This document shows positions 17,473 to 32,418 of a stretch of 64,000 bases of DNA, one piece after another. Source of the stretch: Rhizobium leguminosarum (GTDB taxonomy: Bacteria; Pseudomonadota; Alphaproteobacteria; Rhizobiales; Rhizobiaceae); contig NZ_CP025012.1 of the NCBI RefSeq assembly GCF_002953715.1, positions 4,149,001-4,213,000 on the forward strand, in the 5' to 3' direction. The position numbers and the translations under genes are program-made. Below the pieces are notes generated by a model. It ran no database searches. It saw nothing but the letters and a program-made list of their open reading frames with translations, and was not told the DNA's origin. The first letter of the stretch is position 1, and the number at the start of each line of letters is the position of its first letter.

Positions 17473-17578
17473 CGCGCGAGACCATGCCCGCAAATCGATG
17501 GAATTGGAACCGCAAAGACGGAGCCACGCATTGCGGGTCGCCGCAGCGATTTAAACAGTGAAGCTCAGAAATTGCGCT

Positions 17579-18466
17579 TCACTGGGCCAGGCGGTCGCCA
17601 CTGCCGGAAGTGGCTTCATTTGTCCCGGCATTGCGCTGCCGCAGGCGAATGATCGCCGACGCCTCGCGAGGATTGGGCGGCAGAACGGCGTTCTTCAACG
17701 CGATCGAATAGGCGTGTTTCGGATGTTCGAGCACATCCCTGGCATCGCCGCTCTCCACCACCACACCCTTGCGCATGATCACCACGCGGTCGGAAATGTA
17801 ATAGGCGGTCGCAAGGTCATGGGTGATGTAGACGATCGAAACGTTGAGCGCGTCGCGCAGATCGCGGAAGAGATTGACGATCGACATGCGAAGCGATGCG
17901 TCGACCATCGAGACCGGCTCGTCCGCCACGATCAGCTTCGGCTCGGGTATCAGCGCACGGGCGACGGCGATGCGCTGCAATTGGCCGCCTGAAAGCTCGT
18001 GCGAGAAGCGGCCCTTTATCTCCGCCATCGACAGGCCGACGCGTTGGAGGGCAACGTCGGCAAGCGCCTCTTTCTCGGTGCGGCTCTTTGCGCCCTTGAA
18101 GCGATGGGCGGTGGCGAGCAGATACTCGTCGATCCGGGTCAGCGGATTGAAGGCCTCGAACGGATTTTGGAAGACTGGCTGGACCTTGGCCATGAAAGCC
18201 TCGCGATCCCTGCGGGACCGGACCGCCTTCACATCCGTGCCGTCGAAATGAATACTGCCCCGATCGGCCTTTTCGTTGCCGAGGATCATCTTCGCCAACG
18301 TCGACTTTCCGGAGCCGGATTCGCCGACGATCGTGAATATCTCGGGCTTGTCGGCGCTGAGCGCGAAGCTGACATCGTCGACCGCCTTCATCTTTTCGCG
18401 CGAGAAGAAGCCGCCGATCGGAAAGAGCTTGGTCACATGGTCGAGTTCGAGGAGATTGCTGCTCAT
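17579..18466 (-). CDS. ABC transporter ATP-binding protein (OppF/DppF type)
   Basis: A 295-residue ATPase with Walker A GESGSGKST, signature LSGGQLQRIAVARAL, Walker B LIVADEPVSMVDAS and H-switch YITHDLATAYY. The C-terminus lacks the full iron-sulfur-type CxxRCP tail of the partner. The ATG overlaps the upstream ATPase gene by 4 bases (ATGA). It belongs to a five-gene importer (binding protein, two permeases, two ATPases). The family is labelled oligopeptide, but the adjacent beta-xylosidase argues for an oligosaccharide. Confidence 0.9.
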   Translation of the reverse strand: MSSNLLELDHVTKLFPIGGFFSREKMKAVDDVSFALSADKPEIFTIVGESGSGKSTLAKMILGNEKADRGSIHFDGTDVKAVRSRRDREAFMAKVQPVFQNPFEAFNPLTRIDEYLLATAHRFKGAKSRTEKEALADVALQRVGLSMAEIKGRFSHELSGGQLQRIAVARALIPEPKLIVADEPVSMVDASLRMSIVNLFRDLRDALNVSIVYITHDLATAYYISDRVVIMRKGVVVESGDARDVLEHPKHAYSIALKNAVLPPNPREASAIIRLRQRNAGTNEATSGSGDRLAQ

Positions 18467-19497
18467 TGGATCTGGTACTCCCCGGCACGGAAGCATGCGA
18501 CCCGCCCTCCCGTCGCGCTCGGCAGCATGGCCGGCGCCTCGCGTGCGCATTTGTCGATCGCGATCGGACAGCGTGGATGGAAACGGCATCCCGAAGGCGG
18601 ATCCGAAAGTGCCGGCGGCTTGCCCTTGAGGCTTTTCCGCGTCGAGACATCACCGATGCGTGGCAGGCTGCCGATCAGGTGAACGGTATAGGGATGCTGG
18701 GGATTGTCGAACATCGCCTGCGTCGGCCCCTCCTCCGCCAGCCGTCCCGCATACATGATGGCCAGCCGGTCGGTGATGGCGGCATGCACCGACATGTCGT
18801 GGGTCACGAAGATGACCGAGGACTGCAGGCGGGCCTGCACTTCCTTGATCAGCGCCAGAACGTCCTGCTGGACGAGCACGTCGAGCGCCGTCGTCGGCTC
18901 GTCGGCGATGATGAATTCCGGCTCGCAGACAGTGGCGAGAGCAATGGTCAGGCGCTGGCGCATGCCGCCCGAAAGCTGATGCGGAAAAGCCTCGAGCACA
19001 TGCGGATCGAGATGCAGCCTGGCAAGATGCGCCTCGACGCGCGCGCGGAAGGCATCTGGATCGAGGTTCATGTGGCGGGAGGCGAAATCGGTGAAGGCGT
19101 GTTTGACCCTTCTGACCGGGTTCAGCACGTTCATCGAGCCCTGCATGATGTAGGAAAGGTGACGCCAGCGTGCCGCCTTCATCTTCGCCGGTTCGCCATA
19201 GACATCGATCGGCCCGTCGGCAAAATTGAATTTCACCGTTCCGCCGACGACGCGCATCGGCGGGCGGATGGCGCCGGCAAGCGTCTTGATCAGCGATGTC
19301 TTGCCGCTCGAGGATTCGCCGGCAATCCCGTAGATCTCGTTCCTGCGGATGGTCAGGCTGATATCGTCGACCGCGCGGATCTCCCGCCGCACACCGAAAT
19401 AATCGTTGACGTAGTAGCATTTCAGCCCGTCGATCGTCAGTGCGTCCATGGCGTTTTCGGCAAGGGTCAAAGGCTGCGTCCTCATCAGGTTCTGCAT
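18463..19497 (-). CDS. ABC transporter ATP-binding protein (OppD/DppD type)
   Basis: A 344-residue ATPase with P-loop GESSSGKT (fits GxxxxGK[ST]), signature LSGGMRQRLTIALAT, Walker B FIIADEPTTALDV and the Opp/Dpp C-terminal motif with GCRFHPRCP...KC. It pairs with the OppF-type ATPase. The start at 19497 has GGAG abutting the ATG; a start 15 codons further in (MDALTIDG) would also give a complete domain. It begins 4 bases after the permease stop. Confidence 0.9.
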   Translation of the reverse strand: MQNLMRTQPLTLAENAMDALTIDGLKCYYVNDYFGVRREIRAVDDISLTIRRNEIYGIAGESSSGKTSLIKTLAGAIRPPMRVVGGTVKFNFADGPIDVYGEPAKMKAARWRHLSYIMQGSMNVLNPVRRVKHAFTDFASRHMNLDPDAFRARVEAHLARLHLDPHVLEAFPHQLSGGMRQRLTIALATVCEPEFIIADEPTTALDVLVQQDVLALIKEVQARLQSSVIFVTHDMSVHAAITDRLAIMYAGRLAEEGPTQAMFDNPQHPYTVHLIGSLPRIGDVSTRKSLKGKPPALSDPPSGCRFHPRCPIAIDKCAREAPAMLPSATGGRVACFRAGEYQIQ

Positions 19498-19501
19498 CTC
19501 C

Positions 19502-20359
19502 TCAAGCTCCCATGCGGGCGAGCCGCGAGCGCGGGTCGATATATTCGTTCACCGACATGGCGAGCATGAACAGACCAAGGAACAGGATGACGACGAAGAG
19601 CATCGGAAAGGCGACCCACCACCATATGCCCGATACCATCGCGGAATGCGCATTGGCCCAGTAGATCATGCCGCCGATCGTCGGCCGGTTGATGTCGGAA
19701 AATCCGAGCACCGAGAGCGTCACTTCGAGACCGATCGCCCAGATCATGTTGTTCATCGTCGTGAAGAAGACGATCGGCATGACATAGGGCAGGTGTTCGC
19801 GGATGAGGATCTGCCGTGTGCGCATGCCCGAGAAGACCGCGTGCCGGGTGAATTCCCGCTGACGGAGAGACAGGGCGACGGAACGGATCAGGCGGCTGTC
19901 GTGCGTCCAGCCGAGCAGCGCTGCGGTGATCGCCAGCATGAACCACGTCATCTGGTCGCGAAGCACGAAGACTAGAAGCAGCAGGATCGGAATGTTCGGC
20001 AGTGCGCCGAGTGTATCGTTGACCGCCATGATGATCTGGTCGGTCCGCCCACCGATATAACCGGAGATCAGCCCGACGGCGATGGCGATGATGCGGCTGA
20101 CGAAGGCGACGATGATGCCGAAGAACAGCGTATTGCGCATCGAGGCGGCAATCTGCCAGAAAACCTCCTGGCCGCGCGAGGTGGTGCCCAGCCAGAATTC
20201 GGCCGAAGGCGGCATGTCGGGCGCAACGACATAGATGGCATTCTCGTCATAGGGCGAGAAGAACGACGCCACGATCAACGCCAGAATGATAGCGATCAGG
20301 AGGGTTCCGACCAGGAACTCCTTGTTGTAGCGCAGCAGGTCTCTGAGGACTTTGAACAT
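19502..20359 (-). CDS. ABC transporter permease (DppC/OppC type)
   Basis: A 285-residue inner-membrane permease with an N-terminal helix, a periplasmic segment containing the OppC motif FWLGTTSRGQEVFWQ, and the BPD_transp_1 core with an EAA-like loop. A GTG one codon upstream is an alternative start. It lies 6 bases after the DppB-type permease and 4 bases before the first ATPase, so the importer is one operon. Confidence 0.9.
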   Translation of the reverse strand: MFKVLRDLLRYNKEFLVGTLLIAIILALIVASFFSPYDENAIYVVAPDMPPSAEFWLGTTSRGQEVFWQIAASMRNTLFFGIIVAFVSRIIAIAVGLISGYIGGRTDQIIMAVNDTLGALPNIPILLLLVFVLRDQMTWFMLAITAALLGWTHDSRLIRSVALSLRQREFTRHAVFSGMRTRQILIREHLPYVMPIVFFTTMNNMIWAIGLEVTLSVLGFSDINRPTIGGMIYWANAHSAMVSGIWWWVAFPMLFVVILFLGLFMLAMSVNEYIDPRSRLARMGA

Positions 20360-20365
20360 CACGGA

Positions 20366-21370
20366 TTACCCCAGTTTCACGCGTGGATCGATCAGCGGAT
20401 AGATGATGTCGATCACGAAGACCGCGGCCGCAACCGCGATGATGGCGATGGTGGTGACGCCGAGCACGAGGCTGTAATCGCCGGAATAGATGCCGGAGAT
20501 CAGAAGCTTGCCGATCCCGGGATAATTGAAGACGAACTCGACGATGACGGCGCCGCCGAAGACATTTCCGAGACTGAGTGCCAGGCCGGTGACCTGCGGC
20601 AGCATGGCGTTGCGCGCCACATATTGCGAAAAGATGCTGCGCGAGCGCACGCCGCCAAGTTCTGCATAGACGACGTGGTCGTCGGTAACGATGTTGGAAA
20701 CCAGCGAACGCATCGAGATGAACCAGCCGCCGATGCCGACGAGCACGAGGGTCAGGGCCGGCAGGATGCCGTGTTCGATCACCGAGCTGATGAAGGCCCA
20801 GTTGAAGGCCGGCGCGAGATTGACCTGCGCGCCGTCGCTGATCGGCAGGATCGGCCAGATAAAACCGAAGAGGATCACCAGGCTGAGACCGATGATATAG
20901 GTCGGGATCGGCTGCAGCGCCATGATGACGATGCCGGCAACCTTCAGCAGCTTGCTGCTGCGGAAATAGCCGGCAAGCGCGCCGAGAAAATTGCCGATGA
21001 TCCAGGAAATGATCGTTGCAAGCGTCAGAAGCCCGACCGTCCAGGGCAGTGCACGGCCGATAACGGTCATGACGGGGGTCGGGAAAGACGAAAGCGACGG
21101 GCCGAAATCGCCGGTCAGGACACGGCCCCAGAAGGTGAAATACTGCTCCAGCAGCGGGCCGCCGGTGCCGTAGAGCTCGCGCAGCGATTCGCGGAGGATT
21201 TCGACGGCCTGCGGATCGGTGGAGCCGAAGCTCGTCAACAGCGACACGGTCTGCTCGATCGGATCGACCGGCGAAAAATGCGCGATCAGGAAGGCCAGCG
21301 TGATGCCGGTGAAGACCACGAAGAGAAATTGCAGAAAGCGTTTTGCCGCATAGATCAGAAAGCCGTTCAT
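20366..21370 (-). CDS. ABC transporter permease (DppB/OppB type)
   Basis: A 334-residue permease with the OppB N-terminal TM19 region (FLIYAAKRFLQFLFVVFTGI) and a long periplasmic loop before the BPD_transp_1 core. The C-terminal SGDYSLVLGVTTIAII...YPLIDPRVK is typical of the family. It follows the binding-protein gene by 67 bases. Confidence 0.9.
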   Translation of the reverse strand: MNGFLIYAAKRFLQFLFVVFTGITLAFLIAHFSPVDPIEQTVSLLTSFGSTDPQAVEILRESLRELYGTGGPLLEQYFTFWGRVLTGDFGPSLSSFPTPVMTVIGRALPWTVGLLTLATIISWIIGNFLGALAGYFRSSKLLKVAGIVIMALQPIPTYIIGLSLVILFGFIWPILPISDGAQVNLAPAFNWAFISSVIEHGILPALTLVLVGIGGWFISMRSLVSNIVTDDHVVYAELGGVRSRSIFSQYVARNAMLPQVTGLALSLGNVFGGAVIVEFVFNYPGIGKLLISGIYSGDYSLVLGVTTIAIIAVAAAVFVIDIIYPLIDPRVKLG

Positions 21371-21437
21371 GACATCGACCTTTCAATAGCAGAACGGGAA
21401 CAGCCGGCGGCCGGCTGCTCCCACGATATTGCCTCGA

Positions 21438-23339
21438 TCAAGGCTTCGGCGCGTCCGGATTGGCCTTCAGCCCGACCACCATGTAGCGGATGTTCGACCA
21501 GTTCGGACCCGAGGCCGAATAGGGATTGTCCGCGCTCGGATAGTTGGTCCAATAGGTCGTATCGAGCGGCGCGAACTTGTTGTAGGCCATCAGCGGGATC
21601 ATCGGCATTTCCTCGACGGCGAGCTTCAGGAAGTCCTGGCCGAGCTTAGCGACATCGGGCGAATCGAAGGCGATCGATCGATTGCGCTCGATGATCTGGT
21701 CGAGACGCGGATCCTGCCAGCGCTGCAGATTGCGCGGCGGCTGGATCTGCCCGACCGGCTTGATGAACTCCGAATGATAGCTGTCGAGGAAGAAGGAAAG
21801 GTCGGGATGACCGCCCCAGGTCTCGATGCTCCAGTAGATCGCCGTCTCGAAATCGCCGGTGCCGAGGCGTTGGCCATTGGTCGGGCCGGCGACATCGACC
21901 TTGGTGGCGATGCCGGCTTGCGACCATTGCTGGGCGATCACCGTGCCGGCGCGGGCAAGCGTCGGGATGGCATCGCCTTCCACCTGCAGCCGGATCGTAA
22001 AGGGCGTGCCGTCAGGCTTCACCCACTGGCGGCCACTTTTCTTGAAGCCTGCCTTCTGCAGCAGCTCGGTTGCAGCCTGAACGTCCTTCTTCCACCAGCC
22101 GAAGCCGAATGTGCGCTGCAGCTTGGCCGGATCGGTCGGGATCTGATCGGCCCATTGACTACGCACCATATTGGCGATCTGCGCCGAGATGTTGGGATCG
22201 TAGGGCTTGATCTTGCGATATCCGGTGTCGAGCTCGAAATTCGTCAGCCAGTCCTGCATCGGTGCGTAATAGTCGTCCGGGGCAGAACCCGTCGGCGGCG
22301 TGGCAAGGGCGGCGATATTGGCCGCGCCGCGGTAGGAGCCGAGCGCCACTTCGCGGATGTCGATCAGCAGAGCGAGAGCCCAGCGCACGTCTTTATTGTC
22401 GAAGGGCGCCTTCTTCGTATTGAAGAGAACGGAAGGCAGCGTCGGGTCCGGATGCGCAAACGGGAAGCCCTTCAGCCAGGAGGCTGTGCTCTTGCTGTCA
22501 CGCATGATCGAGAACATGCCCTCGGGCGCCATGTCGTTAATGACGTCGAGATTGTGGTTGCGTTGCTCGATGACGCGGGCCTCCGGATTGCCGGCGGCGC
22601 GATAGACGACGTATTTCACCTCGGGCGGTTGTGCCGCAGCCAGGCCGATCGACGTGCGCTGCCAGTCGTCGCGCAGCTTCCAGATCGTCCAGTTGCCGCC
22701 CTTGTCATAATTCTGCAGCTGGTAGGGCCCGAGTGAAACCGGCGGGTTGTTGTTGAAGGACAGCGGATCTGCGGCCTTCTCGAAGACGTGTTTCGGCATG
22801 ATCCAGGCGGCATTCCAGCGCACGGTGAACAGCGTATGGAAGCGCGAGTTCGGCTTTTTCAGATGGAAGACGACAGTCTGTGGATCCGGATTTTCGATGC
22901 TCGCGACATTGACGGTGAAGGGCGCGCTCCAGGCCATGCCGGGATGGTCGATCTGCGTCTGCACGGTATAGACCACGTCGTCGCTGGTGAATTCGACACC
23001 GTCGCTCCAGAAGATGCCCTTGCGCAGCTTTACCGTCATCTCGGTGAAATCGGCGTTGTAGCGCGGCGGTTCGCTGGCAAGCGCATTCTGCCAGGCATCC
23101 TTGCCACCTTCGGGATTGATGAACCACAGCGTATCGGTGGTCAGCTGCTGCAGGCCGTTGAGGTTTGCCGCCGCCCCGCCGCCCGGAGCCCAGAGGTTGA
23201 ACCAGTCGGCATTCTGCTGCGGCGTACCCTGGATGATCAGCGTTTCATTGCGCGGTATGCCGGCAATGAAATCCTGCGCAAATGCCGGAAGGGCTATGAG
23301 CGACAATAAGGCAATGGCTGCATATTTACGGAACTTCAT
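21438..23339 (-). CDS. Periplasmic substrate-binding protein of an Opp/Dpp-type importer (SBP_bac_5)
   Basis: A 633-residue SBP_bac_5 protein. The signal peptide is MKFRKYAAIALLSLIALPAFA, cleaved before QDF. The family hallmark is the opening of the first lobe and the motif DVVYTVQTQIDHPG in the second. A strong AGGAGGAGG site lies 8-12 bases before the ATG. SBP_bac_5 proteins bind peptides, nickel, or beta-oligosaccharides; the head-to-head beta-xylosidase suggests xylo- or other plant oligosaccharides (inference). Confidence 0.87.
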   Translation of the reverse strand: MKFRKYAAIALLSLIALPAFAQDFIAGIPRNETLIIQGTPQQNADWFNLWAPGGGAAANLNGLQQLTTDTLWFINPEGGKDAWQNALASEPPRYNADFTEMTVKLRKGIFWSDGVEFTSDDVVYTVQTQIDHPGMAWSAPFTVNVASIENPDPQTVVFHLKKPNSRFHTLFTVRWNAAWIMPKHVFEKAADPLSFNNNPPVSLGPYQLQNYDKGGNWTIWKLRDDWQRTSIGLAAAQPPEVKYVVYRAAGNPEARVIEQRNHNLDVINDMAPEGMFSIMRDSKSTASWLKGFPFAHPDPTLPSVLFNTKKAPFDNKDVRWALALLIDIREVALGSYRGAANIAALATPPTGSAPDDYYAPMQDWLTNFELDTGYRKIKPYDPNISAQIANMVRSQWADQIPTDPAKLQRTFGFGWWKKDVQAATELLQKAGFKKSGRQWVKPDGTPFTIRLQVEGDAIPTLARAGTVIAQQWSQAGIATKVDVAGPTNGQRLGTGDFETAIYWSIETWGGHPDLSFFLDSYHSEFIKPVGQIQPPRNLQRWQDPRLDQIIERNRSIAFDSPDVAKLGQDFLKLAVEEMPMIPLMAYNKFAPLDTTYWTNYPSADNPYSASGPNWSNIRYMVVGLKANPDAPKP

Positions 23340-23689
23340 CGGATGTTCCTCCTCCTCAGCTCGCCGCGGCGAGCGCTTCCCGTAATCAATTGACGATGGC
23401 GTCCAGCGAACCCCTGCCTGCGCGTGCCGCAGGGCACATGCACTCCTCGGCGGCGGGCGAACTCACGCCGTAGTTATCGACAATTTTTTGAGAAACGGCA
23501 ACTGATAATTTTGCAGACTATAAAAAATAGCGCGTTTTCAGGCGTTTTTGACGCATGGCAGCGATGTACTTTTTTATATTATTGACAAAGTGAGCGTTTG
23601 GCTTAGCTTTTGCGGCGAGCGCGGCGCCCTCCCAAGAGGCCGTGCTTCATCACCAGACAGGTCGGCTGCTTTCGGGAGGAGGCTTTGGC
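23340..23689. promoter_or_regulatory. Divergent control region between the importer and the xylosidase
   Basis: A 350-bp AT-rich gap without a gene. Toward the xylosidase: -35 TTGACA (23582-23587), 16-bp spacer, -10 TAGCTT (23604-23609), ribosome site GGGAGGAGG near 23674-23682. Two TTGTCRA-type words lie here: GTTATCGACAA (23473-23483) and ATTATTGACAA (23578-23588), the latter overlapping the -35. They recur in the 27205-27444 region and are candidate GntR operators. Confidence 0.5.
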
Positions 23690-25318
23690 ATGACCGTTCA
23701 AGAGGACACCAGGATGAGCAGCCCCTATGACGTGACAATCTCCGTTCACGCCAACCGGCCAACCGGCAAATACCAACCTTTGTGGAACTGGTTCGGATAC
23801 GACGAGCCGAACTACACCTACTCCCCGCACGGCAGGAAGCTGCTCAAGGAACTCACCGAGCTCAGCCCCGAGCCGCCCCGTATCCGCGCGCACAATCTTC
23901 TGACCAGCGGCGATGGCCTGCCTGCCCTCAAATGGGGTTCGACCAATGCCTATACCGAGGATGCGAACGGCAATCCGGTCTACGATTGGACAATCATCGA
24001 CAAGATCTTCGACACCTATGTCGAAGCCGGCAATATTCCGCTGATTCAGATCGGCTTCACGCCCGAAGCGCTCTCCGATTTCGACGGTCCTTATCGCCAT
24101 CAATGGGAGCCGGCCGACAAATACGCAACGATCACCACCGGCTGGACGGCCCCGCCGACGGACCTGAAGAAATGGGGCGACCTGATCGAAGCATGGGCGC
24201 GCCATCTCACCGAAAGATATGGTGAGGCCGTCGTTTCAAGCTGGCCGTGGGAAGTGTGGAACGAGCCGGACGGCCACTACTGGACCGGCACCATCCCGCA
24301 ATTTTGCGAAATGTATGACGTCAGCGCCAAGGCCTTGAAGCGCGCGCTTCCGAAGGCCCGCGTCGGCGGGCCGCACACCTGCGGCGCCTTTGCCAATGAA
24401 AAGGCCCAGACCTTTCTGCGCGCCTTCCTCAAGCATGTGGTCGAGAACAAGTCGCCGATCGATTTTCTCGCCTTCCACGCCAAGGGCAATCCCGTGATCT
24501 ATGAGGGTCACGTCCGGATGGGCCTGCACAAGCAGCTCCGCGACATCGAGACGAACCTTGCCATCATCAACGAGTTTCCCGAACTCCGCCACCTGCACGT
24601 GGTGATCGGCGAATCCGATCCGGAAGGCTGTGCGGCCTGCTCTGCACGCGTCCATCCCCAGAACGGCTATCGCAACGGCCCGCTTTACGGTGTCTATGTC
24701 GTCGAGAGCATGATGCGCACTTACGAACTGGCAAGACGCGCCAACATCCATATCGAAGGTGCAGTGACCTGGGCCTTCCTTTTTGACGACCAGCCCTATT
24801 TCGACGGCTTCCGCGATCTTGCCACCAACGGCGTCGACAAGGCTGTTCTCAACGGCTTCCGCATGCTCGGCAAACTCGGCGGCGAATGGCTGGAATCGGA
24901 AAGCGATTATCGCCGCGATATCGAAGATATCATGAGCCATGGCGTGCGCGGCAAGCCCGATGTCAATGTCGTGGCGACCCGCGACGACAAGGGCGTTTCC
25001 ATTCTCCTCTGGCACTACCACGACGATGATGAAGTCGGCCCCGCCGCCGACATTGTGGTCAATCTCGACGGCTGGGACGCCAAGTCCGCCTCGCTCAAGC
25101 ATTTCAGGATGGACGAGGAGCATTCCAACGCTTTCGGCGTCTGGAAAGCGATGGGCAAGCCGCAGAATCCGGCCGGCGAAGATTATGCCAGGCTGGAAGC
25201 CTCGGGAAAACTCGCCGAGATCGAAGGTGAGGCATCGGCTAAGGTCGATGACGGCAAGATCGCCCTCAAAGTCTCCCTACCGCGCCAGGGCGTGTCTCTC
25301 CTGCGCCTCGATTGGTGA
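23690..25318 (+). CDS. GH39 family beta-xylosidase-like glycosidase
   Basis: A 542-residue clan-A glycoside hydrolase. The TIM-barrel carries the acid/base in WEVWNEPD (Glu192) and a nucleophile in VVIGESD (Glu308), the GH39 pattern. There is no signal peptide, so it acts in the cytosol on imported oligosaccharides, removing xylose (or possibly L-arabinose or another pentose) from non-reducing ends. The start at 23690 follows GGGAGGAGG. It is divergent from an Opp-type importer and beside pentose-acid enzymes. Substrate specificity is inferred from the family. Confidence 0.85.
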   Translation: MTVQEDTRMSSPYDVTISVHANRPTGKYQPLWNWFGYDEPNYTYSPHGRKLLKELTELSPEPPRIRAHNLLTSGDGLPALKWGSTNAYTEDANGNPVYDWTIIDKIFDTYVEAGNIPLIQIGFTPEALSDFDGPYRHQWEPADKYATITTGWTAPPTDLKKWGDLIEAWARHLTERYGEAVVSSWPWEVWNEPDGHYWTGTIPQFCEMYDVSAKALKRALPKARVGGPHTCGAFANEKAQTFLRAFLKHVVENKSPIDFLAFHAKGNPVIYEGHVRMGLHKQLRDIETNLAIINEFPELRHLHVVIGESDPEGCAACSARVHPQNGYRNGPLYGVYVVESMMRTYELARRANIHIEGAVTWAFLFDDQPYFDGFRDLATNGVDKAVLNGFRMLGKLGGEWLESESDYRRDIEDIMSHGVRGKPDVNVVATRDDKGVSILLWHYHDDDEVGPAADIVVNLDGWDAKSASLKHFRMDEEHSNAFGVWKAMGKPQNPAGEDYARLEASGKLAEIEGEASAKVDDGKIALKVSLPRQGVSLLRLDW

Positions 25319-25329
25319 GCCGGTAGGCG

Positions 25330-25361
25330 AAGGGAGCGCAATCGAAAGATTGTGCTCCCTT
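25330..25361. terminator. Bidirectional terminator after the xylosidase
   Basis: AAGGGAGCGCAATC pairs with GATTGTGCTCCCTT (one G-U) around a GAAA tetraloop. It sits between convergent stop codons of the xylosidase and the GntR gene, with TTT on the right and an A-containing left flank. Confidence 0.85.
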
Positions 25362-25378
25362 TCACGTGGCCGGTCGCG

Positions 25379-26056
25379 TCAGTTGTCACTGACATAGGCA
25401 AGATAGCGTTTCTTGCTCGGCTGCAGATGGTCGACGCAGAGCTGGGCGAGAACCCAGTTATCCCCACCGCGCAGCATCTCGATCATCAGCCGGTGATGTT
25501 CGTGCGAGATGCGCAGCGATTCCTTGCTCGACATCGAATTGGCGCGCACCGGCAGGCTGAGCCGCATATAGAGCTCGATCGATTGCACCAGATGCGCATT
25601 GCCGCAGGCGCCGAAGAGCGTCAGGTGGAATTTGTCGTTGGCCTCGTGCACACCCCTAAGATAGCCGGATTCGATGTGGCGGCCATGCTCCTCGTGCAGC
25701 GCCAGCAGTTCCTCGATCAATGCCTCGGGTGCCGGCAGCTTTATCCACAGCGCCGCCTGCCGTTGCAGCAGTTCCCGAACGTCGTAGATTTCCTGAACCT
25801 GGCGGGCAGTCAGCGAACGGACCGTCGCGCCCTTGTTGCGCTCCCGAACCACGATGCCCATCGTCTCGAGCTGCACGATCGCCTGCCGGGCGAAATGGCG
25901 CGTGACGTGAAAGCGGGCAAGGAGCGTGTCTTCGGTCAGACGGGTTCCAGGCGCCAGCCGCCCGAAGATGATGTCCTCCTCCAGCGCGCGGGCAATACTT
26001 AGATCATCATGCTCGATGCCGTCTTCGCGGCTTTCGTTGAGCGTCTGCAATGTCAT
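25379..26056 (-). CDS. GntR-family regulator, FadR/FCD subfamily
   Basis: A 225-residue regulator with N-terminal winged helix (LARFHVTRHFARQAIVQLETMGIV) and an all-helical FCD ligand domain with the metal-binding His pattern (DKFHLTLFGACGNAHL ... HEHHRLMIEML). FCD regulators typically sense sugar acids or other carboxylates, which suits the neighbouring aldonate enzymes. AGAGGAG abuts the ATG; a TTG two codons on (26050) has better spacing and could be the real start. The open frame further upstream is palindromic repeat. It probably controls the two divergent promoters on either side. Confidence 0.87.
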   Translation of the reverse strand: MTLQTLNESREDGIEHDDLSIARALEEDIIFGRLAPGTRLTEDTLLARFHVTRHFARQAIVQLETMGIVVRERNKGATVRSLTARQVQEIYDVRELLQRQAALWIKLPAPEALIEELLALHEEHGRHIESGYLRGVHEANDKFHLTLFGACGNAHLVQSIELYMRLSLPVRANSMSSKESLRISHEHHRLMIEMLRGGDNWVLAQLCVDHLQPSKKRYLAYVSDN

Positions 26057-26066
26057 CTCCTCTGAA

Positions 26067-26166
26067 GCATAACCCCGAAAATCGAAGATTTTCGGAAAGG
26101 GATTATGCGCCAATTTAATGTGGTAGAGCGTCCTTAGCGCGTCCTGTCGGACGCGCGGCGCTCTAA
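26067..26166. repeat. Composite two-palindrome element, copy C1
   Basis: First palindrome GCATAACCCCGAAAATCG...TTTTCGGAAAGGGATTATGC, a short AT-rich linker, then GAGCGTCC...GCGCGTCCTGTCGGACGCGC...GGCGCTCTAA. The same two-part order occurs at 33494-33594. It lies between gntR and the Gfo/Idh gene and forms the leader of gntR. Confidence 0.7.
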
Positions 26167-26178
26167 CGGCGAGCCATG

Positions 26179-27204
26179 TTACAGTGGATTGCGTTCCGGG
26201 TCGAACCGGCTCAAGCGATAGATATCCTCGACGAGAGCAAGCGTTTTGATGTTATCGTCCGGCGATGTCTCCATCGCCACCTTTCCATCGAGGCTGTCGA
26301 GGAAATGCGCGATGGTCGCGTCATAGGCACCCTGATAGGTCTCGTCAGGATCGAAGCTTTCCCGGCACTGCTGCGCCCCCTCGGCCGAGAGCAGATTGCC
26401 GTTAAGTTCGAGCGTGCCGCGCGTCCCGAAGATGCGCAAGTGATCGCGCGGCGTCGGCGGCGCGCCATGTACGGCGAGATTGGCATTGATGGTGACGAGA
26501 ACACCGTCGCTCGTCCGGCGCAGGACGACGCTTGCGACATCCTCCGCGACGATATCGCGATTGCTCCTCTCAAGCCGCGCACTCACCACATCCATCTCGC
26601 CCAGAAGATATCTCAACGAATCGAGATGATGGATCATGACTTCCATGACCAGCAGGCGCTCCTGCGTCCGGAAGAAGGGCTGGCGCACCAGCGCCGGCCT
26701 TCTTCCTTCCGCATCCGCTATCATGCCGCTGGACAGGAATTCGAACTGCACCTGGCGGATCTCGCCGGCAAGCCCCTCGTCGAGCCACGCCTTCAGCCGC
26801 CGATAATAGGCGCGGAACCGCCAGTTCTCGTGGATCATCAGCCTGCCCGCGCCGGAAAGCCCTGCCAGCAGCTCGACCGCCTCGCCGTAGGAGGGAGCGA
26901 GCGGCTTCTGGCAGATGATGTCGAGGTCCTTTGCCGCCGCCAGCCGCACCAGTTCGACGTGGAACTCCCGCGGCGCGCAGATATCCACGGCATCGAGCTG
27001 CTCGGCATCCAGCATCGCCTGCGCACTTGTATAGTGGCGCGCGACATTGAAGGCGGCACGCCGGGCTGCGATCGCACGCGGCGACGGGTCGGCAATCGCC
27101 ACGACCTCGGCTCTTTCCGATTGCCGCATCCATGCAGGCAGATGGTAGGCGCTGACCCAGCCGGCACCGATAATGCCGATACGCCGTCGTCTCGTTCCCG
27201 TCAT
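26179..27204 (-). CDS. Gfo/Idh/MocA-family oxidoreductase
   Basis: A 341-residue two-domain dehydrogenase. The Rossmann motif GIIGAGW is near residue 10, and the usual catalytic EKP is QKP here (ICQKPLAPS, the Lys being retained). The C-terminal domain has the MIHHLDSLRYLLG helix with the conserved His-Asp pair. Family members oxidise aldoses, inositols or sugar acids with NAD(P). It is divergent from the IlvD-amidohydrolase-DapA operon, so it is a candidate for the first step, oxidation of the released pentose to its lactone (inference). Confidence 0.85.
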   Translation of the reverse strand: MTGTRRRRIGIIGAGWVSAYHLPAWMRQSERAEVVAIADPSPRAIAARRAAFNVARHYTSAQAMLDAEQLDAVDICAPREFHVELVRLAAAKDLDIICQKPLAPSYGEAVELLAGLSGAGRLMIHENWRFRAYYRRLKAWLDEGLAGEIRQVQFEFLSSGMIADAEGRRPALVRQPFFRTQERLLVMEVMIHHLDSLRYLLGEMDVVSARLERSNRDIVAEDVASVVLRRTSDGVLVTINANLAVHGAPPTPRDHLRIFGTRGTLELNGNLLSAEGAQQCRESFDPDETYQGAYDATIAHFLDSLDGKVAMETSPDDNIKTLALVEDIYRLSRFDPERNPL

Positions 27205-27444
27205 GGCGTTTCCTCTGCATTCAGTCCAATTTTATCAATAATCTATCCGGCTTCGTCGTAAAAGCCAATCGTTTGATTGTCGAACAAAGGTGCTAATTTC
27301 GCAGATTACCATTGTATTTTATGGTGATCGTCGAAGAAATCCAAAAATGCGATACAGTGGCGCCATCTTATTTATTGACAATCCTCCGTATCCCTCTACC
27401 CTGACGCCACGGCCATGGATCAATTTGGCGAGGGAGGAACAGGT
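27205..27444. promoter_or_regulatory. Divergent control region between the oxidoreductase and dehydratase genes
   Basis: AT-rich intergenic DNA. Toward the dehydratase: -35 TTGACA (27375-27380), 16-bp spacer, -10 TACCCT (27397-27402), then ribosome site GGGAGGA near 27432-27438. TTGTCGAACAA (27277-27287) is a perfect 4-3-4 dyad of the FCD-type TNGTNNNACNA pattern, and TTATTGACAA (27372-27381) repeats the word seen at the xylosidase promoter. Confidence 0.5.
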
Positions 27445-29157
27445 TTGTCGAACGGTCTTCGCCGCAAGCTGACGAGTTATGGCGATCAGGGATTCTCCCT
27501 TTTCCTGCGCAAGGCATTCATCAAGGCCATGGGTTATTCGGACGACGCGCTCGACCGTCCGATCGTCGGCATCGCCAATACCTACAGTGATTTCAATCCC
27601 TGTCACGGCAATGTGCCGCAACTCATCGAGGCGACCAAGCGCGGCGTGATGCTGACGGGTGCATTGCCGATGGTGTTTCCGACGATCTCGATCCACGAGA
27701 GCTTTGCCTCGCCGACCTCGATGTATCTGCGCAACTTGATGGCGATGGAAACGGAAGAGATGATCCGTGCCCAGCCGATGGATGCCGTGGTCCTGATCGG
27801 CGGTTGCGACAAGACCCTGCCGGCCCAGATCATGGCGGCCGCCAGCAGCGAGATACCGGCGATCTTCCTTCCGACCGGCCCGATGGCCGTCGGCCACCAC
27901 AAGGGCGAACGGCTTGGCGCCTGTACCGATTGTCGCCGTTTCTGGGGCCGCTTCCGCGCCGGAGAGATCGACGAGGCCGAGATCGCCGAGGTCAACAACA
28001 AGCTGGCCAGCTCGATCGGCACCTGCACGGTGATGGGCACGGCGAGCACCATGGCGAACCTGACCGAAGTCATGGGGCTCTGCCTACCCCGCGCGGCTTC
28101 GGCACCTGCCGTCGAATCCGAACGGGTTCGCCTTGCCGAGGAAACGGGCCGTGTCGCCGCGCGTCTCGCCATGGATGAGGCAGCGCCGACGGTGCGCGAT
28201 ATCCTGACGCCGCAGGCAATACGCAACGGCCTCGTCGCGCTGCAGGCGATGGGCGGCTCGACCAATGCCGTCGTCCATCTTGCCGCGATAACCGGCCGCC
28301 TCGGCCTGCGCCTCGACATGGCCGAACTCGACCGGCTGGGCCGGAGCATTCCGCTACTCGTCGACCTGCAGCCCTCAGGCCAGCATTATATGGAGCAGTT
28401 CCACGAGGCGGGCGGCGTGCCGGCGCTGTTGAAGGCGGTGCGCCATGAAATCGACGGCAGCGCCCCGACGGTCTACGGCAGGACGATCGGCGAAATCATC
28501 GACGCTGTCGTCGATGAGCCGGGCCAGACCATCATCCGCACCGTCGAGAAACCGTTGAAGCCGATCGGAACGATCGCCGTCCTGCACGGCAATCTTGCGC
28601 CGCGCGGCGCCGTCATCAAACAATCCGCAGCCTCCAAGGATCTGCTCCAGCATATCGGGCGCGCCGTAGTCTTCGATTCCGTCGAGGATATGACGCTGCG
28701 CATCGACAGCGACGAGCTCGACGTCCATGCCGATGACGTTCTGGTTCTGCGCAATGCCGGGCCGAAAGGTGCGCCCGGCATGCCGGAAGCCGGCTATCTA
28801 CCCATCCCCCGCAAGCTCGCACGGCAGGGCGTGAAGGACATGGTGCGGATTTCCGATGCCCGAATGAGCGGCACGGCCTTCGGCACGATCATCCTCCATA
28901 TCGCGCCTGAAGCCGCCGATGGCGGCCCGCTGGCGATCATCCGCACCGGCGATCGCATTCGCCTCGACGTCGAGGGCCGGCGCATCGATCTCGATATCGA
29001 CCAGGCGGAATTCGATCGCCGCATGCTTGATGTCGTCAATCGGCCTTCCCCTGCCCCGTCGCGCGGCTATGCCAAGCTCTATCAGGAGCGCGTGCTCCAG
29101 GCTGACGAAGGCGCCGACTTCGATTTCCTGCAAAGCGAGGAGCTCGATGCGCGATGA
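27445..29157 (+). CDS. IlvD/Edd-family sugar-acid dehydratase
   Basis: A 570-residue iron-sulfur dehydratase. Three cluster cysteines lie in NPCHGN (53), GGCDKT (121, with the Mg-carbamate Lys at 123) and GTCTVMGTASTM (194). The C-terminal ISDARMSGTAFGT provides the catalytic Ser. The spacing resembles pentonate dehydratases such as R. leguminosarum L-arabinonate dehydratase more than branched-chain IlvD. It should convert an aldonate to a 2-keto-3-deoxy acid. I start it at TTG 27445 because GGGAGGA sits 6 bases upstream; an ATG at 27415 has no ribosome site and lies close to the predicted transcript start. It overlaps the next gene by 4 bases. Confidence 0.87.
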   Translation: MSNGLRRKLTSYGDQGFSLFLRKAFIKAMGYSDDALDRPIVGIANTYSDFNPCHGNVPQLIEATKRGVMLTGALPMVFPTISIHESFASPTSMYLRNLMAMETEEMIRAQPMDAVVLIGGCDKTLPAQIMAAASSEIPAIFLPTGPMAVGHHKGERLGACTDCRRFWGRFRAGEIDEAEIAEVNNKLASSIGTCTVMGTASTMANLTEVMGLCLPRAASAPAVESERVRLAEETGRVAARLAMDEAAPTVRDILTPQAIRNGLVALQAMGGSTNAVVHLAAITGRLGLRLDMAELDRLGRSIPLLVDLQPSGQHYMEQFHEAGGVPALLKAVRHEIDGSAPTVYGRTIGEIIDAVVDEPGQTIIRTVEKPLKPIGTIAVLHGNLAPRGAVIKQSAASKDLLQHIGRAVVFDSVEDMTLRIDSDELDVHADDVLVLRNAGPKGAPGMPEAGYLPIPRKLARQGVKDMVRISDARMSGTAFGTIILHIAPEAADGGPLAIIRTGDRIRLDVEGRRIDLDIDQAEFDRRMLDVVNRPSPAPSRGYAKLYQERVLQADEGADFDFLQSEELDAR

Positions 29158-30026
29158 GCGCCGCTGATATGGAGGCACCGCTTTGCCTGCCCCACCGGCC
29201 GCTGACGCGGCTGCCGTGGGCGCCACTGCCGCAAGGCACGGTCGATACGCATTTCCACGTCTTTCGCGCCGGCGCTCCGCTCAACACTCCACGCAGCTAC
29301 ACGCCTGACATCGCGACGATTTCCGACTGGATCGAATTCTCCGGCAGCCTTGGCATCGCCAGGGGCGTATTGGTGCAGCCAAGCGTCTATGGCCTCGACA
29401 ACAGGGTGCTGCTGGAGGCGCTTGCCGCCTATCCAGATCGTCTGCGCGGTATCGTCGTCATCGATCCCGAAACCGCAAAGACCGAGATAGAGCGGCTCGA
29501 CCGGTTCGGCGTGCGCGGCGTGCGGATCAATACACGCAACAAGGGCGGCCTCCCGCTCGCCGCCGCCAGGACACTGGCGGAGAGCATTGCTCCTTTCGGC
29601 TGGTCGCTGCAATTGCAGATCAATCCCGAACAACTTCCCGATATTGCGGCAACCCTGGCCGGCATCCGCCTGCCCATCGTCATCGATCATCTTGGCTTCA
29701 TTCCGCTTGCCACGGAGACGAGATCACGGCATGTCGATGCGCTGAGAAGGCTGATGGACGCGGCTGATACCTATGTCAAAGTGACCGCACCCTACCGTTT
29801 GACGAAGGACGTGAATGACCAAGGTTTCGCCGAGGTCGGCCGCGCGCTTGCCGCCAGCCACGCGGAAAGGCTGCTCTGGGGCAGCGATTGGCCGCATACC
29901 GAATTGTGGGACGGCATGCCCGATGACACCGAGCTGATCGAGACCATGCAAGCCGCCATCGACGATCCCGCGATTGCCGACAAGATTTTTGTTCGAAATG
30001 CCGAAGCGCTGTTCTTCGGCCGCTGA
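29154..30026 (+). CDS. Amidohydrolase-2 family protein, likely sugar lactonase
   Basis: A 290-residue TIM-barrel hydrolase of the amidohydrolase_2 family: DTHFHVF metal motif near the N-terminus, QPSVYG, HLGFIP and LLWGSDWPHTE with the catalytic Asp. Relatives include LigI and 4-sulfomuconolactone / fuconolactone hydrolases, so opening of an aldonolactone is the most likely reaction. It overlaps the dehydratase stop (ATGA) and precedes a DapA-type gene by 14 bases, which fits lactone, acid, keto-deoxy acid, cleavage in order. An internal ATG five codons on is possible. Confidence 0.8.
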   Translation: MSAADMEAPLCLPHRPLTRLPWAPLPQGTVDTHFHVFRAGAPLNTPRSYTPDIATISDWIEFSGSLGIARGVLVQPSVYGLDNRVLLEALAAYPDRLRGIVVIDPETAKTEIERLDRFGVRGVRINTRNKGGLPLAAARTLAESIAPFGWSLQLQINPEQLPDIAATLAGIRLPIVIDHLGFIPLATETRSRHVDALRRLMDAADTYVKVTAPYRLTKDVNDQGFAEVGRALAASHAERLLWGSDWPHTELWDGMPDDTELIETMQAAIDDPAIADKIFVRNAEALFFGR

Positions 30027-30040
30027 ATTGGAGAGTACCA

Positions 30041-30973
30041 ATGGCCAGACTGACCGAAGATGCCAAGGGCGTCTATGTGATCGCCGTAACCCCCTTCACC
30101 GATGACGGCGCGCTCGATCTCGCCAGTATCGACAGCATGGTCGATTTCTACGAGGGCGCCGGCGTCACCGGCCTGACGGTGCTTGGCCAACTCGGCGAGG
30201 CTCCGAAGCTGACCGCCGAGGAATCGCGGACAGTCGTCCAACGGGTGCTGAAGCGTCTCGACGGGCGCCTCCCCGTCGTCGTCGGCGTTTCGGCGCCAGG
30301 GCTTGCGCCGATGAGCGAACTCGCCGAAGCCGTCATGGGTGAGGGTGCGGCCGGTGTCATGGTCGCGCCGCCCTGGACCGTCAAGACCGACGATCAGGCT
30401 TTCGCCTTCTACCAGTCGGTCGGCGAGGCCCTGGGCGATACGCCCTTCGTGCTGCAGGATTATCCGCTCACCACCAATGTGACGATTGCGCCCAAGGTCA
30501 TCGAGCGCATCGTCAACGAGGTGCCCAATTGCGTCATGCTCAAGCACGAGGATTGGCCGGGTCTTTCGAAAATCTCAGCACTTCGCGCCGCCAGCGACAA
30601 GGGCACCATGCGGCGTATCTCCATCCTCTGCGGCAATGGCGGGCTTTTCCTGCCCGAAGAGATGGGCCGCGGCGCCGATGGCGCAATGACCGGCTTTTGT
30701 TATCCGGAGATGATGGTTGGCGTCGTCGAGGCCTATGCAGCCGGAAATCCCGATCGCGCCCATGCGATCTTCGATGCCTATCTGCCGCTCGCCCGCTACG
30801 AACAGCAGCAGGGCATCGGCCTTGCCTCGCGCAAATATGTGCTTGCCAAGCGCGGCGTGATCAAGTCCGCCACCCTGCGCAAGCCGGGCGCCAAGCTCTC
30901 AACGCTCGATATTACGGATGTCGAGCGGCTGCTGGCGCGCCAGGCCATCCGCCTCAAGGAGATCGGGGCGTAA
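30041..30973 (+). CDS. DapA/NAL-superfamily aldolase or dehydratase for 2-keto-3-deoxy sugar acid
   Basis: A 310-residue class-I lyase with Schiff-base Lys168 in VMLKHEDW and the conserved Tyr141 in LQDYPL. The usual GTTGE loop of DapA reads GQLGEAPKL, so it is not a lysine-biosynthesis enzyme. In this operon it should take the keto-deoxy acid made by the IlvD-family dehydratase, either cleaving it to pyruvate and glycolaldehyde or dehydrating it to 2-oxoglutarate semialdehyde. The sequence does not decide which. GGAGAG precedes the ATG. Its 3' end overlaps the convergent GNAT gene by 20 bases. Confidence 0.85.
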   Translation: MARLTEDAKGVYVIAVTPFTDDGALDLASIDSMVDFYEGAGVTGLTVLGQLGEAPKLTAEESRTVVQRVLKRLDGRLPVVVGVSAPGLAPMSELAEAVMGEGAAGVMVAPPWTVKTDDQAFAFYQSVGEALGDTPFVLQDYPLTTNVTIAPKVIERIVNEVPNCVMLKHEDWPGLSKISALRAASDKGTMRRISILCGNGGLFLPEEMGRGADGAMTGFCYPEMMVGVVEAYAAGNPDRAHAIFDAYLPLARYEQQQGIGLASRKYVLAKRGVIKSATLRKPGAKLSTLDITDVERLLARQAIRLKEIGA

Positions 30974-31467: not shown

Positions 31468-32418
31468 CTAGATTGCAGGAACCGGGGTCTCGCGGCGCAT
31501 CGCCGCGGCCGGCAGGCCGACCGGCACGAAACTCGCGTCGCCATCGGCGGCCATGTCACGCACCGTATGTTTCTCCAGCGCCTTGGTCACCTCGTTGAGG
31601 TCGCCGTCCAGCTGTTCGGCCGGAATAAGATTGCCGATGACGAAATCGAAGCGGTCGCCGCGTTTGTTCAGCAGTTCGTGGAACACGGTCATGTCGCGAA
31701 GCTCTGTCGACCATTTGGCCAGCCAGTAGAACAGGCCGGAATTGCGTGCCGTCATATGGACGGGAAGGATCGGCAGATTGTATTTGCGCGCCAGCCCGAC
31801 GGCCGAGGTCTTCCACGGACGTTCGTTCAGCCGGCCGTTCGCCCAATAGGCGATACGGCCTGAGGGAAAGAGCACTGTCGCCTTGCCTTCCTTCACCGCA
31901 TGGTTGGTCAGCTGCAGCGTTTCGCGCGCTTTCAGCTTGCTCTTATGCTCCTCCCGCCATTCGACGGGAATGATCATCTCGGCAAAACGCGGATTGACGC
32001 GGATGGCATCGCGATTGGCGAAGAACATCATGTCCGGCCGGCGGGCTTTCAAGAGATCGAACACGGCAACGCCGTCGGCGATGCCGGTCGGATGGTTGCT
32101 GACGAGGATGAAGCCGCCGGTATCAGGGATGCGTTCGCCATTGGTGATGCCGATGTCGAGCCTCAGCACATCGCTCAGATATTCGAACGACTGGAAGCCC
32201 GGCATTTTGCCGACCGCATTGGCGAATTCGAGCGCCTTATTGTAGCGCAGCAGCGTGTAGAGGAACGGCCGCATGACCGGCCAGAGCGGATTCTTCACGA
32301 TCCTCTGGCCGCGTTCGGCAATCAGCGTATCGACGATATGACCGGGCTTTCCCTGTGAAACGAGAGCGATCGCTTCCGCGAGCTGTCCGAAAGCCGTCAT
32401 GGAATCGCGCCGTGCCAT
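31468..32418 (-). CDS. PlsC-like lysophospholipid acyltransferase family protein
   Basis: A 316-residue acyltransferase-domain protein. The catalytic motif is SNHPTGIADG, with five residues between His and Asp as in the NHPFGGLDG branch rather than canonical HX4D, and motif III is LFPSGRIAYW. The usual substrate of the family is acyl-CoA or acyl-ACP and a lysolipid at the inner membrane. A start at the second Met (residue 7) is equally possible. Divergent from xerC. Confidence 0.78.
   Translation of the reverse strand: MARRDSMTAFGQLAEAIALVSQGKPGHIVDTLIAERGQRIVKNPLWPVMRPFLYTLLRYNKALEFANAVGKMPGFQSFEYLSDVLRLDIGITNGERIPDTGGFILVSNHPTGIADGVAVFDLLKARRPDMMFFANRDAIRVNPRFAEMIIPVEWREEHKSKLKARETLQLTNHAVKEGKATVLFPSGRIAYWANGRLNERPWKTSAVGLARKYNLPILPVHMTARNSGLFYWLAKWSTELRDMTVFHELLNKRGDRFDFVIGNLIPAEQLDGDLNEVTKALEKHTVRDMAADGDASFVPVGLPAAAMRRETPVPAI

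Follow-up and report, generated by a model that had tools for sequence, protein, structure and literature searches.

In this study, we analysed a stretch of 64,000 nucleotides from Rhizobium leguminosarum, hereafter the window (positions 4149001 to 4213000 of contig C1 in a 7.79-Mb genome of six contigs), and focused on an eleven-gene cassette that joins an ABC importer, a GH39 glycosidase, a GntR regulator and four enzymes of sugar-acid metabolism. The gene set is conserved among root-associated and soil bacteria. We propose, with moderate confidence, that its genes are co-regulated and form a self-contained catabolic unit for an oligosaccharide of plant origin that contains a pentose, most likely L-arabinose, which is degraded without phosphorylation. 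The parts are of known kinds; that they work in this combination, and on this substrate, is predicted.

The importer genes lie on the minus strand and encode an OppF-like ATPase of the Opp/Dpp type (17579 to 18466; ABC_tran, 98.9 bits; the open reading frame [ORF] extends to 18589, but the start, judged by eye, is probably near 18466), an OppD-like ATPase of the same type (18463 to 19497; ABC_tran and oligo_HPY over cut-off), two permeases (19502 to 20362 and 20366 to 21370; BPD_transp_1, 73.4 and 124.7 bits) and a PepT-type SBP_bac_5 solute-binding protein with a signal peptide (21438 to 23339; PF00496, 162.2 bits). Head to head with them on the plus strand is the GH39 gene (23691 to 25318, in an ORF from 23642; PF01229, 163.8 bits against a cut-off of 26), which very probably starts at 23691 or 23714. 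By eye, its product lacks a signal peptide, unlike the binding protein; therefore, hydrolysis should be cytoplasmic. Two minus-strand genes follow, for an FCD-type GntR regulator (25379 to 26113; PF07729, 78.3 bits, and PF00392, 51.1 bits, both over cut-off) and a Gfo/Idh/MocA dehydrogenase, proposed as an aldose 1-dehydrogenase (26179 to 27204; PF01408, 79.1 bits). The plus strand then carries an IlvD/EDD sugar-acid dehydratase (27415 to 29157; PF00920 and PF24877; PRK06131, 840.4 bits against a cut-off of 539), an Amidohydro_2 enzyme proposed as an aldonolactonase (29154 to 30026; PF04909, 144.7 bits) and a DapA-family protein of the Gln/Lys/Glu type, proposed as a 2-keto-3-deoxy-pentonate dehydratase (30041 to 30973; PF00701, 112.2 bits).

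Families were assigned by Pfam and NCBIfam profile searches, and all those that an earlier note on this DNA had named are present at the ends stated, from the importer, GH39, FCD-GntR and Gfo/Idh genes to the IlvD-amidohydrolase-DapA group. The note had not given strands; for GntR and Gfo/Idh it is the minus strand that carries the genes, and the ORFs opposite them on the plus strand (25352 to 26002 and 26176 to 27261) had no Pfam or NCBIfam match at an E value of 0.001. As that note had said, xylose isomerase and kinase are absent from the annotated genes of the locus; the remaining genome was not searched for them. The cassette is flanked by priA (15256 to 17493, minus strand) on one side and by acyltransferase-like and xerC-like genes on the other; the acyltransferase, immediately downstream (31468 to 32418, minus strand), is akin, below cut-off, to the N-terminal part of the ornithine-lipid synthase OlsF. 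A genomic island was considered and rejected, with a GC content of 0.60 to 0.64 over 16 to 32 kb and of 0.59 to 0.63 in the rest of the window.

The eleven-gene set is a real unit, beyond chance, as the set and its divergent layout recur in Rhizobium, Devosia and Rhodobacterales and its two divergent promoter regions have operator-like sites in common. The GH39 gene is patchily distributed (E value, 1e-40): it was found in 1 of 297 sampled genomes of the family, the window's own, and in 29 of 148 genomes of the genus, the window's own included. Among the 25 alphaproteobacterial GH39 loci compared (L015 to L039), 15 have all eleven genes in the window's arrangement at 47 to 100% identity; one of these 25 loci, on the Rhizobium johnstonii 3841 chromosome (L017), has the same gene order at 92 to 100% identity. 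In the other ten loci, IlvD lies beyond the fetched end (L018, L019, L020 and L022), the contig is cut (L031), no DapA of the window's type is within reach (L023 and L024), the DapA of that type is distant and 54% identical (L021), another DapA type stands at the locus (L039), or the locus is rearranged and lacks relatives of IlvD, Gfo/Idh and the amidohydrolase within reach (L025, Devosia). The head-to-head arrangement of importer and GH39 described in the earlier note recurs in 23 of the 25; L031 is truncated there, and L025 has another importer of the same family, in the same direction as GH39. Cassettes are also carried on plasmids of Sinorhizobium sp. B11, Rhizobium sp. WYJ-E13, Qingshengfaniella and Roseinatronobacter, and these do not have the window's DapA type.

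Several variants of the unit were observed. In some Rhizobium loci (L002, L018, L019, L020 and L022; absent from L003, L021 and L023), a second sugar module is inserted between GH39 and GntR; as annotated in L002, it comprises a DapA of the Tyr type, a GntR regulator, a sugar ABC transporter and a PfkB kinase, and similar ORFs are present in L018 to L020 and L022. Eight Devosia-type loci (L029, L030, L032 and L034 to L038) have an ORF of 253 to 261 amino acids right after DapA, which in L029, the sole one scanned, is a short-chain dehydrogenase/reductase (SDR) with no named model over cut-off among the 25 listed. In L024, an SDR that matched general SDRs in the PDB occupies the DapA position and possibly provides another pathway ending. 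A Variovorax locus (L014, 2942 to 13005) has IlvD (63% identity), amidohydrolase, Tyr-type DapA and Gfo/Idh (48%) genes adjoining ABC transporter genes for two permeases and an ATPase. A tblastn search of the 25 kb fetched gave no relative of the window GH39, so the core pathway can exist apart from this glycosidase.

The importer-GH39 gap and the Gfo/Idh-IlvD gap share a near-palindrome, TTRTYGACAA. Thirty loci were available for counting (the window, L002 to L005 and L015 to L039), of which 20 were counted first and nine were added, L025 being without such divergent gaps; in the window, copies outside the gaps were counted from 10 to 36 kb. In the first 20 cassettes, the motif was present in 40/40 gaps, with 68 copies in the gaps (11,209 bp) and 4 in the remainder of the same loci (463,453 bp), and the strict form TTATYGACAAW had 59 copies in gaps (35/40) and none outside. 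In the nine added loci, the motif was present in 17/17 gaps; loose copies numbered 30 in the gaps (4,523 bp) and 3 outside them (175,128 bp), and strict copies 26 and 3. With these loci included, the outside copies rose from 0 to 3 for the strict form and from 4 to 7 for the loose one. For both samples pooled, the motif was found in 57/57 gaps; the loose form has 98 copies in the 15.7 kb of gaps and 7 in the other 639 kb of these loci, and the strict form, present in 52/57 gaps, has 85 and 3. Because the site is in every gap and rare elsewhere, one regulator probably controls the cassette. The sites themselves are observed; that FCD-GntR binds them is what we infer.

Within the window, the strict form occurs only at 23474 to 23484 (TTATCGACAAT), 23579 to 23589 (TTATTGACAAA) and 27372 to 27382 (TTATTGACAAT), all given on the plus strand as candidate operators, where 0.01 copies were expected. 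The first two are 105 bp apart; two core copies lie 105 to 108 bp apart in this gap in 18 of the 20 cassettes and 96 bp apart in two. TTATTGACAAA may overlap a -35 box, and since the motif partly resembles such a box, it could be operator and promoter together. The genome has nine strict copies, three of them at this locus, against three copies of a reversed control pattern. Of the other six, three lie inside predicted ORFs, two lie upstream of genes (one for a topoisomerase, one restriction-endonuclease-like) and one has no ORF of at least 120 amino acids within 280 bp; given this placement, we claim no further member of the regulon.

The catalytic pair of the GH39 protein, Glu184 (acid/base, in an NEP motif) and Glu300 (nucleophile; numbering from the start at 23714), is conserved in 32/32 relatives. 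A structure model (predicted local distance difference test score, 91.8) has beta-xylosidases as its nearest folds (Z 36 to 38; 4m29, 37.8), followed by alpha-L-iduronidases (Z 30 to 32), and the arabinofuranobiosidase 5u22 and GH51 arabinofuranosidases rank lower (Z about 23 to 24), a ranking that may still leave room for arabinofuranosidase-type specificity. When a GH39 fragment was searched against the PDB, only noise was returned. Lys257 and Arg367 are also invariant in the 32 relatives. Lys257 faces Tyr in four of the five printed xylosidase alignments (6yyh is gapped there), and Arg367 faces Gly in the sole alignment that reaches it (1px8). The subfamily is further marked by an invariant HAKG and an E-x-DPxGCAAC nucleophile loop. 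The residue list for the -1 subsite of GH39 xylosidases (PMC7242879) is not matched: Phe115, Asn183, Glu184 and His255 are kept, and the Tyr230 position is Lys257. Thus, the GH39 half of the earlier label "GH39 xylosidase" stands, and the xylosidase half is unproven for an enzyme whose activity is predicted and whose Lys257 and Arg367 are absent from the xylosidases compared. Human alpha-L-iduronidase uses Lys264 and Arg363, which may stand at corresponding places. In view of these residues, the sugar may instead be charged or otherwise unusual.

The best PDB matches of the binding protein are 2o7i and 4jsd, both named oligopeptide-binding, followed by 4pfu (mannoside/sugar-binding) and 1zty (chitin-oligosaccharide-binding). 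Its nearest relatives outside cassettes, in a plasmid collection, are about 59% identical; 36 such rows were listed, and in all four of the loci checked the relative stands next to an alpha-N-arabinofuranosidase (GH51). Devosia L025 combines a GH51 gene with GH39, GntR, a Gln-type DapA and an importer that belongs to this family and has its genes in the same order. In R. leguminosarum, the PepT-family protein pRL110281, which we equate by description with RL_RS31175, has a contiguous arabinofuranosidase; import of arabinan or a derived oligosaccharide has been suggested for it, and its mutant was less competitive (0.44) in the pea rhizosphere (Ramachandran 2011, PMC3333776).

The enzymes proposed for the oxidative route have conserved catalytic residues. 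In the Gfo/Idh protein, whose closest solved relative is the 5uhw series (mentions of which in the literature were limited to use as a search model), the catalytic Lys100 (QKP) and His192 (E-x3-H) are invariant in the 15 proteins compared. IlvD retains the Fe-S cysteines Cys63, Cys131 and Cys204, together with Ser485, in 14/14 and scores 514.9 bits against L-arabinonate dehydratase versus 310.6 against D-xylonate dehydratase. In the amidohydrolase, Asp31, His33, His35, His179 and Asp245 are invariant (20/20); His33, His35, His179 and Asp245 correspond to the HxH/His/Asp active site of the cog3618 sugar lactonases. The position of the gene suggests a lactonase function.

At the last step encoded in the cassette, the earlier note had left open an aldolase or a dehydratase. 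L-2-Keto-3-deoxyarabonate (L-KDA) dehydratase has Lys171, a Gln143 that replaces the aldolase Tyr, and a Glu173 that is not conserved in other DHDPS/NAL proteins (PMC9795676). The window DapA carries this signature, with Lys168 (Schiff base), Gln139 and Glu170, as do 18/18 of its type; eight other DapA proteins from cassettes or cassette-like loci and one from a hydroxyproline operon have Tyr instead, and the residue two places beyond their Lys is not Glu, in an alignment that is one column out between the Gln and Tyr types. The choice is thereby narrowed to a dehydratase-like enzyme in the window and an aldolase-like one in Rhodobacterales, where L004, L005 and L039 have a Tyr-type DapA immediately before IlvD and the dehydratase appears to have been swapped for an aldolase-like DapA at the same step. 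The Tyr-type DapA of L002, L018, L019 and L022 belongs to the inserted module. No alpha-ketoglutarate semialdehyde dehydrogenase was seen in the cassette; candidate aldehyde dehydrogenases (ALDHs) lie beside IlvD genes elsewhere, and the only one scanned (L117) passes no named cut-off.

The wider genomic context makes an L-arabinose-type pentose appear more likely than xylose. Neighbour clusters of the GH39 relatives outside proteobacteria (about 50% identity) were named from one scanned representative each, so that the GH51 cluster in 5 of 57 loci and the GH43 arabinosidase-like cluster in 4 rest on clustering; most loci have neither. In five of the 57, from two phyla (Spirosoma, Fibrivirga, Fibrella, a Cyclobacteriaceae and Gemmatirosa), GH39 occurs with an enolase-type sugar-acid dehydratase and AraD1 (422.1 bits against a cut-off of 340 in L067), with an SDR in four of them and, in two, an ALDH that is 51 to 52% identical to the ALDH of three hydroxyproline operons. 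The attachment of different enzyme sets to related GH39 proteins argues that those glycosidases yield a sugar for this kind of pathway. The window genome has its own arabinose-type operon, with AraD1, ALDH and an over-cut-off IlvD; a second sugar-acid cluster (G000:C2:129000-141000, L117) has an IlvD with 1138 bits to L-arabinonate dehydratase, DapA, ALDH and RraA-like genes.

Taken together, these data suggest the following route. The PepT-type importer would take up the intact oligosaccharide, and the cytoplasmic GH39 would free the pentose, most likely L-arabinose. From their families, residues and operon, Gfo/Idh is predicted to oxidise the pentose at C1, the amidohydrolase to open the lactone, IlvD to dehydrate the aldonate to 2-keto-3-deoxy-L-pentonate and the Gln/Glu-type DapA to dehydrate this product to alpha-ketoglutarate semialdehyde. 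Formation of alpha-ketoglutarate would then depend on a semialdehyde dehydrogenase whose gene lies elsewhere in the genome. In Rhodobacterales, the Tyr-type DapA would be expected to yield pyruvate and an aldehyde. FCD-GntR would control both divergent units via the TTRTYGACAA sites. Of the pathway put forward in the earlier note, import, hydrolysis and non-phosphorylative oxidation are supported by the co-localisation, the shared operator-like sites and the catalytic residues; its emphasis on xylose is weakened by the IlvD scores, the GH51 and AraD1 neighbours and the DapA signature.

Several observations weigh against this proposal. IlvD is nearly as close to 8ej0, named only dihydroxyacid dehydratase (509.6 bits), and is under the curated L-arabinonate dehydratase cut-off (NF009559; 669.7 against 882 bits). 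The closest solved relative of the amidohydrolase is a 2-pyrone-4,6-dicarboxylate hydrolase and no known sugar lactonase. The second base of L-KDA dehydratase, Glu200, aligns with Gly in the window DapA, for which reason we describe the protein as probably working like that enzyme and do not file it as a member. The GH39 fold is nearest beta-xylosidases, yet it bears the two charged residues that set it apart from those compared. L025 carries a GntR orthologue yet has no copy of the site. Among the non-proteobacterial loci, AraD1 is confined to the five mentioned, and the ALDHs there score far under every named cut-off, with 2,5-dioxovalerate dehydrogenase as best named match (87.6 against 750 bits). 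The genome already has two IlvD proteins over the L-arabinonate dehydratase cut-off, so it is not obvious why ordinary arabinose should require a third set. In the literature searched, the cassette genes had no reported activity, induction or growth data, and a full-text search found no paper that combined GH39 with arabinonate. Although it carries the cassette, strain 3841 fails to grow on free arabinose when araE is mutated, an effect for which the authors note possible polarity (PMC4495286); since araE encodes the semialdehyde dehydrogenase that the cassette would also need, and polarity is possible, this mutant neither supports nor excludes the cassette's proposed role.

Other substrates have to be weighed on the same evidence. 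If GH39 were a beta-xylosidase acting on xylo-oligosaccharides, D-xylose would follow a Weimberg-like route, as the GH39 Pfam family, the nearest fold (Z 36 to 38) and the pentose-type pathway end would allow; we consider this unlikely, because IlvD is closer to L-arabinonate than to D-xylonate dehydratase, relatives of the importer and of GH39 are linked in part to arabinofuranosidases and AraD1, and two invariant charged residues of the GH39 pocket are not shared by the xylosidases compared. Similarly doubtful is the release of a non-pentose relative that is L-arabino-configured or charged, such as a hexuronic acid, D-fucose, D-galactose or another rare plant sugar, although it would account for the retention of a dehydrogenase and a dehydratase set aside for this sugar. 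It would fit the invariant Lys257 and Arg367, the under-cut-off IlvD beside two over-cut-off IlvDs elsewhere in the genome, the missing Glu200 and a further match of the amidohydrolase to PDB 4mup, a galactarolactone isomerase; however, a pentonate is indicated by the AraD1 and ALDH genes that accompany some of the GH39 relatives in other phyla, and the Gln/Glu-type DapA resembles L-KDA dehydratase. That the importer carries peptides or opines, with the sugar enzymes as incidental neighbours, is very improbable: it would agree with the peptide-type annotation of the importer family and with the names of the binding protein's top two PDB matches, both oligopeptide-binding, but the divergent importer-GH39 pair is kept in 23 of 25 alphaproteobacterial loci with shared sites, the next PDB matches bind mannosides and chitin oligosaccharides, and relatives adjoin GH51.

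The source of an L-arabinose-containing oligosaccharide may be sought in plant glycoproteins. In three Spirosoma loci (L045, L079 and L089), the GH39 gene, near 10 kb, is collinear with genes for a DapA, an ALDH, a D-amino-acid-oxidase-type protein and a 4-hydroxyproline epimerase (595.2 against a cut-off of 376 bits in L089; by clustering in L045 and L079), and in Spirosoma L006, two GH127 genes lie about 9 kb from GH39. These contexts fit hydroxyproline-rich plant glycoproteins as a substrate source, and they are suggestive only. As a tentative and rather speculative extension, it can be envisioned that this GH39 subfamily has a new specificity for the glycans of such glycoproteins (arabinogalactan or extensin arabinosides), that at least three phyla have wired it independently to unrelated enzyme sets leading towards alpha-ketoglutarate semialdehyde, including hydroxyproline catabolism in Spirosoma, and that rhizobia feed on host root-surface glycoproteins.

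In strain 3841, priA is RL4412 (PMC4255674) and RL4417 is a 70.67-kDa periplasmic solute-binding component (PMC7900000), which is probably the orthologue of the window binding protein; by gene order, the cassette would correspond to RL4413 to RL4423, the other tags being our assignment. RL4417 was one of the proteins reduced (0.76) in gpxA-mutant nodules, and is therefore made in nodules (PMC7900000). In the full-text literature, RL4417, RL4418 and RL4420 to RL4423 turned up in one paper. If the proposal is correct, legume symbionts and Devosia have a private route under a single regulator, in which root-wall oligosaccharides are taken up in oligomeric form and the pentose-phosphate pathway is bypassed, a rhizosphere-fitness trait that is testable in the model strain 3841. 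The DapA slot would be a natural experiment in which one pathway switches between dehydratase and aldolase endings.

The cassette is reminiscent of several known systems. With the non-phosphorylative L-arabinose pathway of Azospirillum and of R. leguminosarum (RL3617 to RL3612), it shares the logic of Gfo/Idh, lactonase, IlvD, a DapA- or AraD1-type dehydratase and a semialdehyde dehydrogenase (PMC9795676, PMC4495286). Unlike that pathway, it has an oligosaccharide-type importer, a cytoplasmic GH39 and FCD-GntR, its lactonase candidate is an amidohydrolase and not an SMP-30 protein, its IlvD is below the arabinonate equivalog cut-off, and no semialdehyde dehydrogenase was seen in it. The GH39 beta-xylosidases 4m29, 2bfg and 1px8 have the same fold and catalytic Glu pair, whereas the cassette enzyme is 23 to 27% identical to them in structural alignments and has its own Lys257, Arg367 and cysteine-containing nucleophile loop. 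GH39 includes enzymes acting on arabinofuranosides, such as the bifidobacterial GAfase and AAfase, which act on arabinose-containing arabinogalactan side chains; those are secreted or on the cell surface and release disaccharides, whereas the cassette enzyme is predicted to be cytoplasmic and linked to oxidation (PMC10688797). Likewise, the pRL110281-pRL110282 system, for which uptake of arabinan oligosaccharides was proposed (PMC3333776), has an importer of the same family with a 59% identical solute-binding protein, but it has GH51 where the cassette has GH39, and its annotated neighbourhood has no oxidative enzymes.

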